Shown in pieces: positions 27,388-31,402 of a stretch of DNA of 64,000 bases (positions within the stretch are counted from its first letter, which is position 1; each line of letters opens with the position of its first letter). The position numbers and the translations under genes were made by a program. Source of the DNA: Ignavibacteria bacterium (lineage in GTDB: Bacteria; Bacteroidota; Ignavibacteria; Ch128b); NCBI GenBank assembly GCA_013177855.1, contig JABLYA010000002.1, positions 248,001 through 312,000 on the forward strand, written 5' to 3'. The notes beneath the pieces were generated by a model that searched no databases, was not told the DNA's origin, and worked only from the letters and a program-made list of their open reading frames with translations.

Positions 27388-27411
27388 AAAGCCGAACTTT
27401 CGTTCGGCTTT
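27388..27411. terminator. Bidirectional terminator between ATPase operon and tRNA
   Basis: The 10-base stem AAAGCCGAAC/GTTCGGCTTT closes a TTTC loop (27398-27401). T-rich flanks lie on both strands, so it can end the ATPase transcript (+) and the tRNA transcript (-). Confidence 0.88.
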
Positions 27412-27415
27412 AACT

Positions 27416-27491
<76 letters not shown>

Positions 27492-27553: not shown

Positions 27554-28054
27554 CTATCGTTTCTTAATAATCTTTTTCGGTGTCAATCCAAAATTATAAT
27601 CTTTATCGTAAACTTCTATTGTTCCATCAGATCTTTTCTTCAAAACCTGTTTTGGTGTAAGACCATAATTGTATTCTTTATCATATATCAAAATTTCATT
27701 ATTCGATTGTTCTTTAACCGAAATCTTTGGAATTATACCATAGTTGTAATCTTTATCATAAATTTTGTAACCAGTCGAGAAATCTTTTTCAATTTTTTGC
27801 TTTGGAATTAAACCGTAAAAATAATCTTTATCGTACACTTGATAACTGTCATCATAATTTTTCTTGATTTGCTTTTTAGGTATCAGTCCGTAGTTATAAT
27901 CTCGGTCGTAAACTTTAAAATCACCATTTAGGTCTTTTTCAATTCTTTCTTTTGGTAACAGCCCAAAGTTATAATCTTTTGAATAGATATCCCATTTATT
28001 CTGAGAGAAAGCTATTGATATCGAAAAGATTAATAAAAGAATTAAGGGTTTCAT
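27554..28054 (-). CDS. Secreted protein of six 25-residue repeats
   Basis: 166 residues. After a signal peptide (cleavage near SIAFS/Q) the whole protein is six tandem copies of a 25-residue unit, consensus (I/V)YDKDYNYGL(I/T)PK followed by a variable, lysine-rich 12 residues. Copies begin at DIYSKDYNFG, VYDRDYNYG, VYDKDYFYG, IYDKDYNYG, IYDKEYNYG and VYDKDYNFG. The acidic YDKDYNYG turn could bind calcium or a ligand, and the tyrosines give a strand-turn-strand look. No sorting domain or lipobox is seen. It is a single gene, preceded by a region without clear promoter boxes. I do not recognise the family; the fold may be WG-like or a small beta repeat. Confidence 0.85.
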   Translation of the reverse strand: MKPLILLLIFSISIAFSQNKWDIYSKDYNFGLLPKERIEKDLNGDFKVYDRDYNYGLIPKKQIKKNYDDSYQVYDKDYFYGLIPKQKIEKDFSTGYKIYDKDYNYGIIPKISVKEQSNNEILIYDKEYNYGLTPKQVLKKRSDGTIEVYDKDYNFGLTPKKIIKKR

Positions 28055-28231: not shown

Positions 28232-28462
28232 TCACTTAAAACTTCTATATAATTTATTTAGATCTTCAACAAATTTTTCGATATCAGCATCTGAATAACC
28301 TTTTTCCTTTGATGCTGATTCAAGAGTTCCCCAGATTGGTTCACCGCAAACAAGGCAACGAATTCCTTTATCCATTAAATATTTCACCGCTTCGGGTTTT
28401 AACACAACCAATTCTTCAATTGTAATTTCTTTAGTAATTGTTTTGGTCGATGTCTCACTCAT
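28232..28462 (-). CDS. DUF1858-type redox-disulfide protein
   Basis: 76 residues matching the DUF1858 domain, called hybrid-cluster-protein-associated redox disulfide domain: TIEELVVLKPEAVKYLMDKGI, then the paired cysteines CLVC, then the TLESASKEKGYSDADIEKFVEDLN tail. Such proteins are small cytoplasmic dithiol proteins near sulfur, nitrosative or anaerobic genes. The start overlaps the stop of the upstream DUF6132-like gene by eight bases. It is the last gene of the ECF-sigma redox cluster, and a terminator was not seen after it. Confidence 0.85.
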   Translation of the reverse strand: MSETSTKTITKEITIEELVVLKPEAVKYLMDKGIRCLVCGEPIWGTLESASKEKGYSDADIEKFVEDLNKLYRSFK

Positions 28463-28682
28463 TTTCTTTCTCCACTTTTTTCTCCGCAGTCGGGAAACCA
28501 GCTATTGCTCCAATTAACATCCCATATAAACTTGAAGTATACCATTTTGAAGTAATCGGGCAACTTCCATTATAGCAACCAATGAAATAATAGTAAAGAT
28601 AACCGCCAATAAATCCAATCAAAGAAAATAAAACAAGTTTAAAATATTTTTTTCGAGTAATTGACATCATCAATTCTTTCAC
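28455..28682 (-). CDS. DUF6132-like small membrane protein
   Basis: 75 residues with a membrane helix (LVLFSLIGFIGGYLYYYFI), then the family motif CYNGSCPITSKWYTSSLYG and a second helix. The start is GTG 28682, supported by GGAG seven bases before it and by a four-base overlap with the gene upstream; ATG 28670 is the alternative. Proteins with this CP-I-S motif are common beside rhodanese, YgaP-like and thioredoxin genes in Bacteroidota; the function is not established. It belongs to the redox operon and is a relative of the smaller protein at 29567-29740. Confidence 0.85.
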   Translation of the reverse strand: MKELMMSITRKKYFKLVLFSLIGFIGGYLYYYFIGCYNGSCPITSKWYTSSLYGMLIGAIAGFPTAEKKVEKENE

Positions 28683-29335
28683 GAAATAACTCCAATGCTT
28701 TCATATATTTTATCAAGCAGCATATCTTCAGGGACTGCTCCTTCAATGAAATCATTCTCGTTAATTATCGTTCTTGGAACTCCCATTACATTATATTTTC
28801 TTGCAAGATGTGGGAATTCAGTTGCTTCAACCATATCCGATTTAATTTTTGGATTCAAATAAGCGAACTTATGGGCAGCAATAACAGCACGAGGACAATA
28901 TGGACAAGTTGGAGTTACATAAACTTGAAGATGAACATCTTTATCAATTGCCTTTACTTTTTCAATTACATCCGCGCTTAAATCAACTTCGCCTGTCCCG
29001 ACCATTTTAATATCCTCAAGCAAGGATGCAAATTCATAACCTGAAGGAATACCATAATATCTGATACCAAAATCTTTATCACCCTCACCTTCAAGAATTA
29101 CTATGGCTGGAATTTTATCAATACCATATAATTCAGCCTTATCTTTATCAATCACAAAATTGTAAACTTCGAGTTTGAGTTTGTCTGAAGTTTGAACGAG
29201 TTCTTCAAGCAAAGTTCTTGTTTCACGGCAGTACATACATTCAATTTCCTGCGTAAACATTACAATCTTTACGTCCTTTTTCAAAACCGACAACTGTTTT
29301 GAAATTTCTTTTTGCAATTTTTCATCAATAAACAT
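28679..29335 (-). CDS. Glutaredoxin-like protein disulfide oxidoreductase (two thioredoxin folds)
   Basis: About 218 residues from ATG 29335, placed behind the site AGAGGTG; a GTG at 29344 and ATG 29341 are alternatives. The protein has two thioredoxin folds, each with a CxxC: CMYC in the N-terminal half and CPYC (TPTCPYCPRAV) in the second. The length and layout match the protein disulfide oxidoreductase/PDO family (TIGR02187-like) of thermophiles and anaerobes. Conserved cis-proline blocks are present (GIDKIPAIVI and NVMGVPRTII). It is a cytoplasmic thiol-disulfide enzyme and the likely soluble partner of the membrane thioredoxin and DUF proteins in this cluster. Confidence 0.9.
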   Translation of the reverse strand: MFIDEKLQKEISKQLSVLKKDVKIVMFTQEIECMYCRETRTLLEELVQTSDKLKLEVYNFVIDKDKAELYGIDKIPAIVILEGEGDKDFGIRYYGIPSGYEFASLLEDIKMVGTGEVDLSADVIEKVKAIDKDVHLQVYVTPTCPYCPRAVIAAHKFAYLNPKIKSDMVEATEFPHLARKYNVMGVPRTIINENDFIEGAVPEDMLLDKIYESIGVIS

Positions 29336-29350
29336 AAACATCACCTCTTC

Positions 29351-29545
29351 TTATTTTTCATCTTTTGAAGTATTAATCTTAAATGGTAAATAAGCAGGGC
29401 AAAATCTAAAATAAGCTGTTAATAAAGGAATAAATCCTAAAAATCCCCACCAGTTTTTTGATGGATCAATTACTGCAAAAATTAGAAGAACAACACCTAA
29501 AATTGCTCTTAAAATCTGATCTGTTTTGCCAACATTCTTTTTCAT
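29351..29545 (-). CDS. DUF2892 (YgaP transmembrane-type) protein
   Basis: 64 residues matching the DUF2892 inner-membrane domain: NVGKTDQILRAILGVVLL, a second helix WWGFLGFIPLLTAYFRF and the closing FCPAYLPF with its single Cys. This domain forms the membrane anchor of the rhodanese YgaP, but here it stands alone. The gene has a very good ribosome site (AAAGGAGA). It starts 21 bases after the DUF6132-like gene and precedes the disulfide oxidoreductase gene. A role in membrane sulfur or thiol handling is inferred from the company it keeps. Confidence 0.88.
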   Translation of the reverse strand: MKKNVGKTDQILRAILGVVLLIFAVIDPSKNWWGFLGFIPLLTAYFRFCPAYLPFKINTSKDEK

Positions 29546-29566
29546 TTTTAATTCTCCTTTAATTTG

Positions 29567-29740
29567 TTACAGATTTTTGTTACTTGTAATTAAATAACCG
29601 AGTAAAGCAAAATATAAAGTTGATATTTTGGGATTACATAAAATAGGACAAACACCCATAGTATGTTTACTGAAAAACTTTCCGATAAAATATCCAGATA
29701 TTCCGCCAATCAAAACACCTGCCACTTGAAGCATTGTCAT
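29567..29740 (-). CDS. Second DUF6132-like small membrane protein (57 residues)
   Basis: A 57-residue reading frame too short for common gene finders. It starts at ATG 29740, overlapping the stop of the DUF302 gene by four bases (ATGA), and ends at TAA 29567-29569. The protein shows one glycine-rich helix (VAGVLIGGISGYFIGKFF), a loop with GVCPILCNPK and a second helix (STLYFALLGYLI). Helix-CP-I-loop-STLYG/A-helix is the same arrangement as in the protein at 28455-28682, whose motif is GSCPITS. It carries two cysteines in the loop. I take it to be a real gene because of the coupling, the motif and uninterrupted family structure. Confidence 0.8.
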   Translation of the reverse strand: MTMLQVAGVLIGGISGYFIGKFFSKHTMGVCPILCNPKISTLYFALLGYLITSNKNL

Positions 29741-30126
29741 TGACTTACCTCGATAATTATTTCTTTAATGATTCTTTCGACTTGCTTCGCCACATCACTA
29801 ATTTGGTTCATCCCAAGTTTTTCAATCATCTCTACAGGATCTGGTGCTGAAATGTAATTTCTCCCGTCTTTTTCATAAACAAGAATTTTGCAAGGCAAAA
29901 TTGAACCGAAATTTTTATCCTGACTTAAAACAAGATGAGCAAATTTTGGATTGCAAAGCTCAACAATAGAATAGTTTTCAATTTGAAAACCTTTTTCATT
30001 CAATATGTCACTTACACGATGTATGTGCTGGACACGAAAACTGTGTTTTTCAGCGAGACTTTCAATCTCTTTTAAGATTTGATCAAACGGCTTATTTACT
30101 TGAACTGTGAAATTCATTTTTCCCAT
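29737..30126 (-). CDS. DUF302 family protein
   Basis: 129 residues of the DUF302 family (TT1751-like alpha/beta fold): FTVQVNKPFDQILKEIESLAEKHSF, then YSIVELCNPKFAHLVL with a conserved Cys, FGSILPCKILVYE and AKQVERIIKEII. The CNP and LPCK cysteines are the family's shared positions. Members are found next to sulfur oxidation and thioredoxin genes; the activity is unknown, although a thiol or metal role is suggested. The ATG overlaps the thioredoxin gene's stop by one base (TAATG), and the following gene overlaps its stop by four, so all three are translationally coupled. Confidence 0.9.
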   Translation of the reverse strand: MGKMNFTVQVNKPFDQILKEIESLAEKHSFRVQHIHRVSDILNEKGFQIENYSIVELCNPKFAHLVLSQDKNFGSILPCKILVYEKDGRNYISAPDPVEMIEKLGMNQISDVAKQVERIIKEIIIEVSQ

Positions 30127-30530
30127 TAAATGGATTGATATTCTTTTAATAATTTTTCTTCATCTTGAAAGCCGATTAAAAATTCTTTCACAAGATTTCC
30201 TTTCATAAGAGCAATACTTGGAGTTCCCATAATTCCAAAGACTCTTGCAAGTTGTAAATCCTTCGATATGTCCACACTTAAAACATTATAATTAAATCTT
30301 TTCAGTTTTTCAATTATTGGTGATTGATAACGACAAGCAGAGCAATTTGGTGAATAAAAATAAATCAACAACTTGTCTTTATCGAAATAGTTTCGCAATT
30401 CTGGTCTAATCTTACCCAGATCAATTGTTTGACCAGAAATCTTCTTGCTTCTAAAAATCAAATAATATTGAAAAGCAAAGAAGAGAGTTAAAAATCCAAA
30501 AATTAAAATTATTACATAAACCATAGTCAC
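30126..30530 (-). CDS. Membrane-anchored thioredoxin-like protein
   Basis: 134 residues: an N-terminal membrane helix (VYVIILIFGFLTLFFAFQYY), then a thioredoxin fold with active site CSAC in YFYSPNCSACRYQSPI and the cis-Pro block FGIMGTPSIALMK. The start is GTG 30530 or, more conventionally, ATG 30524. The predicted topology is uncertain: positive residues follow the helix (FRSKK), which favours a cytoplasmic thioredoxin domain. It opens the redox operon and is preceded by the shared ECF-type motif at 30538-30562. It probably reduces or oxidises the small membrane cysteine proteins that follow. Confidence 0.9.
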   Translation of the reverse strand: MTMVYVIILIFGFLTLFFAFQYYLIFRSKKISGQTIDLGKIRPELRNYFDKDKLLIYFYSPNCSACRYQSPIIEKLKRFNYNVLSVDISKDLQLARVFGIMGTPSIALMKGNLVKEFLIGFQDEEKLLKEYQSI

Positions 30531-30537
30531 ACAATAA

Positions 30538-30562
30538 GATGAGATAAAATTATGAAAGTTTC
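30538..30562 (-). promoter_or_regulatory. ECF-type promoter candidate before the redox genes
   Basis: The minus strand reads GAAAC (30562-30558), 16 bases, CATC (30541-30538): an ECF-like -35/-10 arrangement (GAAC-type and CGTC-type boxes at about 16 bases). The same layout occurs before the sigma gene. The CATC ends seven bases before GTG 30530, so the transcript would be leaderless or nearly so. Confidence 0.55.
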
Positions 30563-30594
30563 AAGGAAGGTTTGATGGATGGATCGAGTGTCTT

Positions 30595-30858
30595 TTATTT
30601 ATCGTCCTTATCCTGCAATCCCAAAAAAGCTAAAAGTCTCTCGTGAGCACCTTCGGGCAAATCCGTTTTATATTCACGGAATAGTTTTACAGTTTTTTCG
30701 AGTTGATCATAAAAATTGCTGCAATTCTCACATTCCTTGAGATGTTCCTGAATTGCAACACAAAGTGGTGAATCTGGTAATTCACCGAGATGCTCACAGA
30801 CCTGATTGATAACTTCCTTGCAGGTCAATTTATTGTTCGAAGTAAGGTTTAAGTTCAT
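30595..30858 (-). CDS. Zinc-finger anti-sigma factor
   Basis: 87 residues. The core HLKECENC matches the zinc-binding HxxxCxxC motif of ZAS anti-sigma domains, preceded by an N-terminal cysteine region (LTCKEVINQVCEHLGEL). The usual fourth ligand is probably the earlier His/Cys (CEHLGE). The C-terminus is short and lacks a membrane helix, so it is cytoplasmic and may sense redox state through zinc release, as in RsrA. It overlaps the 3' end of the sigma gene by 29 bases, a strong sign of a cognate sigma/anti-sigma pair. Confidence 0.88.
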   Translation of the reverse strand: MNLNLTSNNKLTCKEVINQVCEHLGELPDSPLCVAIQEHLKECENCSNFYDQLEKTVKLFREYKTDLPEGAHERLLAFLGLQDKDDK

Positions 30859-31402
30859 TTCTTAAAAATAACCTTGCTCTGTGTAATCTTGATTTTACTG
30901 CTGGAATACTAATTCCAAGTGTTTCAGCTGTTTCTTGAGTTGAAAGTCCTTCCACATCTCTTAACATAAAAACAATTCGATAATCTGGTGGAAGTTTTTC
31001 AATGGCTTCATCCATTATTTTTTTTAATTCATCATTAAGTAATTTGTCTTCTGGTAAATCTGACCAATGTTTAACTTCTGGCTCTTCAAAATCAAACTCT
31101 TCTTCATCAATAGAATGAAATTTATCTTTATGAACTTCAGAACGAGCCATCATTAAACAATGATTTACCACAATGCGATAAAGCCAGGTTGAGAACTTCG
31201 ACTTACCGTCAAACTGATGCAGGGATTTTATAACACTCATAAATGTTTCCTGCATCGTGTTTTCGGCTTTTTCACGATTACGACAAATTTTAAATGCAAA
31301 ACTAAAAATGGTCTTTTCGTATTTAGTAACCAGCTCAGCTAAAGCTTTTTTATCTCCTGCTTTGGCTCGTTCAATGAGTTCTAATTCTTTTTGTTCAATC
31401 AT
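30830..31402 (-). CDS. ECF-family RNA polymerase sigma factor (redox cluster)
   Basis: 190 residues of a sigma-70 ECF factor. Region 2 is clear (FSFAFKICRNREKAENTMQETFMSVIKSLHQF, STWLYRIVVNHCLM), followed by an acidic linker and region 4 (LPPDYRIVFMLRDVEGLSTQETAETLGISIPAVKSRLHRAR). Start ATG 31402 has no ribosome site; the -10-like CATC of the motif at 31405-31429 ends two bases before it. It should direct transcription of its own gene and the redox genes through the shared motif. The paired anti-sigma gene follows with overlap. Confidence 0.95.
   Translation of the reverse strand: MIEQKELELIERAKAGDKKALAELVTKYEKTIFSFAFKICRNREKAENTMQETFMSVIKSLHQFDGKSKFSTWLYRIVVNHCLMMARSEVHKDKFHSIDEEEFDFEEPEVKHWSDLPEDKLLNDELKKIMDEAIEKLPPDYRIVFMLRDVEGLSTQETAETLGISIPAVKSRLHRARLFLRNELKPYFEQ

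Follow-up and report, generated by a model that had tools for sequence, protein, structure and literature searches.

Within the window, by which we mean the whole stretch of 64,000 nucleotides of Ignavibacteria DNA analyzed here, one minus-strand gene encodes a small protein in which the motif YDKDYNYG recurs at a constant spacing. The locus raises the question of whether these repeats are the product of a recent expansion, which fold they are likely to adopt and what a protein composed of them could do for the cell.

Layout of the repeat gene

The coordinates of the gene, its units and its immediate downstream neighbors are listed in Table 1. The preliminary description had the protein made entirely of six 25-residue repeats. 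The six units were recovered, while an 18-residue signal-peptide-like leader had been omitted and the sixth unit comprises only 22 residues. The leader was judged to be Sec-signal-like by eye and ends in ..FSQ, and several other proteins of the window carry similar N termini with a hydrophobic stretch closing in ..SQ or ..AQ. Judging from this N terminus, the repeat protein is probably exported by the Sec route. Its mature form is basic (calculated pI 9.1), and the gene is present as a single copy in its own genome. The search for a promoter did not single out a candidate, with 7 sigma-70-like sites found and 5.1 expected from shuffles.

Table 1. Features of the repeat gene and of the region directly downstream (positions in the window)
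Feature	Position	Strand	Remarks
Repeat protein gene	27554..28054	minus	ATG start, 166 codons plus TAG stop; purifying selection
Signal-peptide-like N terminus, residues 1-18	28001..28054	minus	Read from sequence
Unit 1, residues 20-44	27923..27997	minus	
Unit 2, residues 45-69	27848..27922	minus	
Unit 3, residues 70-94	27773..27847	minus	
Unit 4, residues 95-119	27698..27772	minus	
Unit 5, residues 120-144	27623..27697	minus	
Unit 6, residues 145-166	27557..27622	minus	Three residues short (22 of 25)
tRNA-Met (CAT)	27416..27491	minus	Just downstream of the repeat gene; same neighbor in L005
Terminator-like hairpin	27388..27411	minus	After the tRNA

Periodicity and age of the repeats

The exact 25-residue period proposed earlier was borne out by five units of 25 residues and one of 22. 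Self-identity across residues 19-166 reached 0.49 at an offset of 25 and 0.46-0.47 at offsets of 50 and 75, while the highest value among 2000 shuffles (offsets 5 to 79) was 0.22. Among the 57 stop-to-stop frames of at least 120 codons in the window, periodicity was strongest in the repeat gene (0.41 with the leader included). The second-strongest frame (0.28) has the same 25-residue period and was taken to be the antisense shadow of the repeat gene.

Recent repeat expansion, the explanation offered in the preliminary description, was contradicted at the DNA level. Tandem Repeats Finder at a score of 50 reported no DNA repeat at the gene, and the repeats thus exist at the level of the protein, where any two units are 40-64% identical (mean 49%), with a mean DNA identity of 0.58. 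Where two units share a residue, the codons differ in 88 of 176 unit-pair cells compared to 78.7 expected under random codon use, and pS and pN between units average 0.85 and 0.31, respectively, all of these figures being derived from 15 unit pairs that are not independent of each other. Synonymous sites between units are saturated, from which it follows that the duplications date far back and that protein-level selection has kept the copies similar since. The repeats are therefore old and maintained by selection rather than recently expanded, and the locus behaves as a real gene whose units vary freely at synonymous and far less at replacement sites. It provides a clean case of a lineage-restricted gene with repeats that appear fresh when viewed as protein, yet are old and under selection when viewed as DNA.

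Which residues have been retained is apparent from ten units, six from the window and four from the relative described below (L005). Y5, Y9, G12 and P15 are invariant in all ten, D6, N10 and K16 are kept in nine, and position 7 is either K or R, while position 8 is D in five units, E in four and T in one. Together these residues form a near-constant core, YDKDYN[YF]GLxPK, followed by a more variable spacer. Position 19 of this spacer is I, V or L in 10/10 units, position 2 is aromatic or aliphatic in 10/10, and position 4 is so in 9/10 (I or V, with the single Ala not counted).

Occurrence of the repeat in other genomes

The gene is genus-restricted among the sampled genomes. In the set of nearest genomes the repeat was present in 2 of 61, namely the host genome and a second genome of that genus, and a two-unit profile detected it in 2 of the 6 genomes of the order and in 2 of 391 sampled genomes of the class, both belonging to this genus. 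A scan of genome contigs, which detects close relatives only, likewise yielded a single relative, the Ignavibacteria MAG contig CALDZP010000045.1 (contig C45 of G001). In a sample of the phylum (n=395), three weak matches were found besides the genome of origin (E 0.0075 to 0.0099 over 15-27 residues). They were rejected as homologues, since the repeat is absent from the translated stretches of about 200 residues that surround them. An origin from a phage or plasmid was dismissed as well, since phage and plasmid records yielded nothing at E <= 1, and searches of viral contigs with the protein and the unit profile did not find the repeat.

In the relative, the repeat (L005) occupies the same place in the same gene order, beside tRNA-Met and genes of a dipeptide-type transporter. 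Its last three units are 62% identical to those of the window over 77 residues, and 59% identical when aligned one unit earlier. This 62% falls inside the range of 54-71% identity obtained for four neighboring transporter proteins of the two species. For the same three units pS is 0.74 and pN 0.23. The four units of L005 fit units 2, 3, 5 and 6 of the window about as well as units 3, 4, 5 and 6. They are split over two frames, one spacing measures 74 instead of 75 bases, and no start codon was visible. An interspersed repeat stands ahead of the units (L005 1-335, G001 contig C45). Read from its sequence, the gene of the relative looks broken, either because it is decaying or because the assembly is faulty; in the former case its function would be dispensable there. 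The interspersed repeat, which contains GTCATTGCGACCCGCCAAAGGCGGGGAAGCAATC, is present in 23 copies in G001 (at most 3 mismatches) and was found in none of five further genomes searched within the order, including that of the window.

Family and literature searches

The preliminary description knew of no named family for the repeat, in agreement with the searches of Pfam, NCBIfam, PHROGs and PDB sequences, which gave no convincing match. All four Pfam matches were under the cut-off. The best of them, Allatostatin (E 0.011), was rejected because it lies below its cut-off and its 11-position model matches 5 residues. PHROGs returned seven weak matches, none with a stretch passing on its own, the best being of unknown function (E 0.0018 over 16 residues). 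A search of PDB sequences with the repeat protein returned nothing up to E 10, while the unit profile retrieved two NisB chains only (E 1.5) at the same limit, and the PDB searches up to E 10 likewise gave no sequence match to OspA/OspB. DUF3836 (PF12930) was absent from Pfam scans up to E 10 with both the protein and unit pairs, and the host genome contains one weak, below-cut-off match to it on another contig. Neither EF-hand nor any other calcium-binding family was listed in the Pfam and NCBIfam scans of the protein or in those with unit pairs. RHS/YD, MORN and beta-flower repeats did not appear in the Pfam scans up to E 10, in which the HMMER filters may drop very weak matches. Within the collection of papers searched, the literature contained neither the motif string YDKDYNYG, nor DUF3836, nor 'Ignavibacteria' together with 'tandem repeat protein'.

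Predicted fold and structural matches

The expectation of a regular fold was supported by structure prediction, in which each unit was modeled as one beta hairpin. AlphaFold2 was queried with units 3-6 and a four-row alignment built from the window protein and L005. The best of five models reached a pLDDT of 78.7 and a pTM of 0.65, while the other four scored 74.0, 55.2, 54.8 and 51.0. This confidence may be inflated, given that the alignment has only four rows and one of these is the window protein again, offset by two units. Strands were predicted at about positions 15-22 of a unit and 1-6 of the next, and the best model contains three complete hairpins, with three of its four units also forming a helical turn at positions 10-12. 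The full-length prediction from the single sequence was poor (pLDDT 39.9), and its strands fell at almost identical places within the unit.

Comparison of the model with known structures gave no match at E <= 0.001 in either the PDB or the viral library of Foldseek. Most of the PDB leaders were propeller proteins of the WD40 type, the best with an E of 0.018 and a probability of 0.98, and they had an rmsd of 6-9 (8.8 for the match with the best E) and query TM-scores of about 0.3-0.4. The viral library returned a mixture that includes WD-repeat, bulb-type lectin and MORN names (best E 0.049), with the MORN-repeat viral proteins at E 0.16 and 0.78. VIA-align, with which 985 chains were realigned, placed 3msw at the top (Z 7.0, rmsd 3.9, 91 aligned residues), along with 4r8o (DUF3836; Z 6.6, rmsd 3.4, 79 aligned) and the plant protein 1zxu (Z 6.0, rmsd 3.0, 81 aligned), while OspA chains reached a Z of up to 4.8 and WD40 chains about 3; by the tool's own warning, a Z below 8 may reflect no more than a commonly occurring arrangement. 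MORN, RHS and beta-flower folds were not among the 50 VIA-align matches listed. The two programs disagree on the nearest fold of the model, Foldseek favoring WD40 and VIA-align favoring sheets, and neither match can be considered safe.

The two leading sheet proteins, 3msw (BF3112 of Bacteroides fragilis, of unknown function) and 4r8o (a DUF3836 protein of Bacteroides vulgatus), are small bacterial proteins like the repeat protein, with which they share only 8-10% identity. OspA of Borrelia has a free-standing hairpin meander, and the VIA-align matches of the model to the antiparallel sheet of OspA/OspB are weak and without a counterpart in sequence. RHS/YD, MORN and beta-flower repeats consist of short tandem units with one hairpin each, and the predicted architecture of the repeat protein resembles them in both respects, but their period and core motif are unlike those found here. 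By its predicted fold, the repeat protein is an unnamed, genus-restricted variant of tandem beta-hairpin proteins in the broad sense. Confirmation of the hairpin array would enlarge the catalogue of beta-hairpin repeats by one unnamed unit; the protein alone opens no long-standing question and is a modest, lineage-specific curiosity.

Proposed function and alternative readings

The reading we prefer, to which we assign a rough probability of 0.45, is that this single-copy gene, restricted to its genus, encodes an exported antiparallel beta-hairpin array with loops that bind something outside the cell. The data establish the open frame, its repeats, the selection on them and, for the genomes sampled, the confinement to one genus. 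Export and hairpin fold are predicted features, and the binding role is our inference. In this model, a small basic protein would leave the cytoplasm by the Sec route, and each 25-residue unit would form one antiparallel hairpin, after which comes the loop YDKDYNYGLxPK (unit positions 5-16) that may carry a short helical turn at N-Y-G. Six units could align six copies of this Tyr/Asp/Asn/Lys loop along one sheet, which might then act as a binding scaffold in the periplasm or on the cell surface. The partner of such a sheet would presumably be repetitive or multivalent, for example a glycan, an envelope polymer or another protein. It is rather unlikely, though conceivable, that the protein represents an entirely new family in which this hairpin unit with its Y-D-K-D-Y-N-Y-G-L-x-P-K loop is closed or lined up six-fold as a surface binding array of one Ignavibacteria genus, in an arrangement that does not occur among solved structures.

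Several other readings of the same units were weighed. Calcium binding, mentioned as a possibility in the preliminary description, would have the loop D-x-[D/E]-x-N of a secreted protein chelate the ion and thereby rigidify the array, and D6-x-[D/E]8-x-N10 is indeed complete in 7 of 10 units as counted by eye. However, the invariant positions are Tyr5, Tyr9, Gly12 and Pro15, while D6 is missing from one unit and position 8 varies among D, E and T. Position 17, which we take to be the equivalent of EF-hand loop position 12 from the EF-hand geometry, carries an acidic residue in one unit out of ten. Given also the basic pI and the lack of any listed calcium-binding family, the sequence does not appear to support this claim, and we regard it as improbable. 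We are similarly doubtful of a curli-like matrix protein with strand-loop-strand units stacking into extracellular fibres. The small size, the signal-like start, the tandem strand-loop-strand units and the kept Tyr, Asn and Gly residues would fit such a protein, but matches to CsgG and to curlin repeats were 0 each in the genome at the cut-offs used (E <= 0.001 and E <= 0.01, respectively) with an E. coli control positive in both. Stacking in register would, by inference, bring like charges together at positions 7, 16, 20 and 21, and the modeled list of strands reads as a meander rather than a solenoid. The units might alternatively serve as whole or partial blades in a small, closed protein of propeller-like or toroidal shape instead of an open sheet, as the WD40 leaders in the PDB and the WD-repeat proteins and bulb-type lectins in the viral library (E 0.049 and weaker) would suggest. 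The low TM-scores and high rmsd of these matches and the Z of about 3 for WD40 chains make this quite improbable, as does the prediction of two strands per unit, where a WD40 blade has four.

Two further readings were considered. A chance repetitive open frame or a decaying relic would account for the rarity of the repeat (2/391 class genomes) and for the broken appearance of its sole relative, and is nonetheless very improbable considering that pN is far below pS between units as well as between species and that the open frame begins with a signal-like stretch and holds a strict 25-residue register. The least probable reading, which we hardly credit, is a precursor from which several short peptides, the YDKDYN[YF]GLxPK cores, are cut out at basic sites. 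It draws on the contrast between the near-constant core and the more variable spacer, on basic residues that, by eye, stand side by side in 3 of the 6 units of the window and in 2 of the 4 in the relative, and on the oligopeptide-type transporter beside the gene in both species. A dibasic site is, however, missing in half of the units, the spacer keeps strand-type positions (2, 4 and 19), no processing enzyme was noticed by eye among the adjacent genes of the window, and the transporter ATPase is present in G003-G005, genomes in which the repeat was not detected.

Genomic surroundings

On its upstream side, the repeat gene is separated by 177 bases from a cluster of small redox-type genes on the minus strand. 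By Pfam, these encode two thioredoxin-like proteins, a DUF302 protein, a YgaP-like membrane protein and a DUF6132 protein, along with a match to DUF1858 below its cut-off, while two more small proteins of the cluster matched nothing in Pfam at E <= 0.001. The cluster (28232-31402, minus) itself lies downstream of ECF-sigma-factor-like and small anti-sigma-like genes, named by eye, and the small protein encoded at 30595-30858 drew no hit in the Pfam scan.

A search of nine genomes recovered tRNA-Met loci in seven of them (G001, G003, G004, G010, G014, G023 and G055), of which the first four were read. The neighborhood is conserved at the locus of G001, while the loci of G003, G004 and G010 have different neighbors and no repeat ORF was seen there. 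A conserved partner gene was rejected, as the latter three loci have other neighbors and the transporter ATPase was found in genomes in which the repeat was not. Since the slot is variable between genomes, the neighbors say little about the function of the repeat gene. The lack of the repeat in G002 (88% complete) says little because neither the transporter ATPase nor the tRNA was found in this genome. In G003, GIY-YIG-like frames (by eye) at L014 3037-3279 and L019 2-172 are identical over 57 shared residues. One of them closes a contig and the other opens a different one, with the transporter genes close by and tRNA-Met adjacent. The break between the contigs may fall within the duplicated GIY-YIG-like gene.
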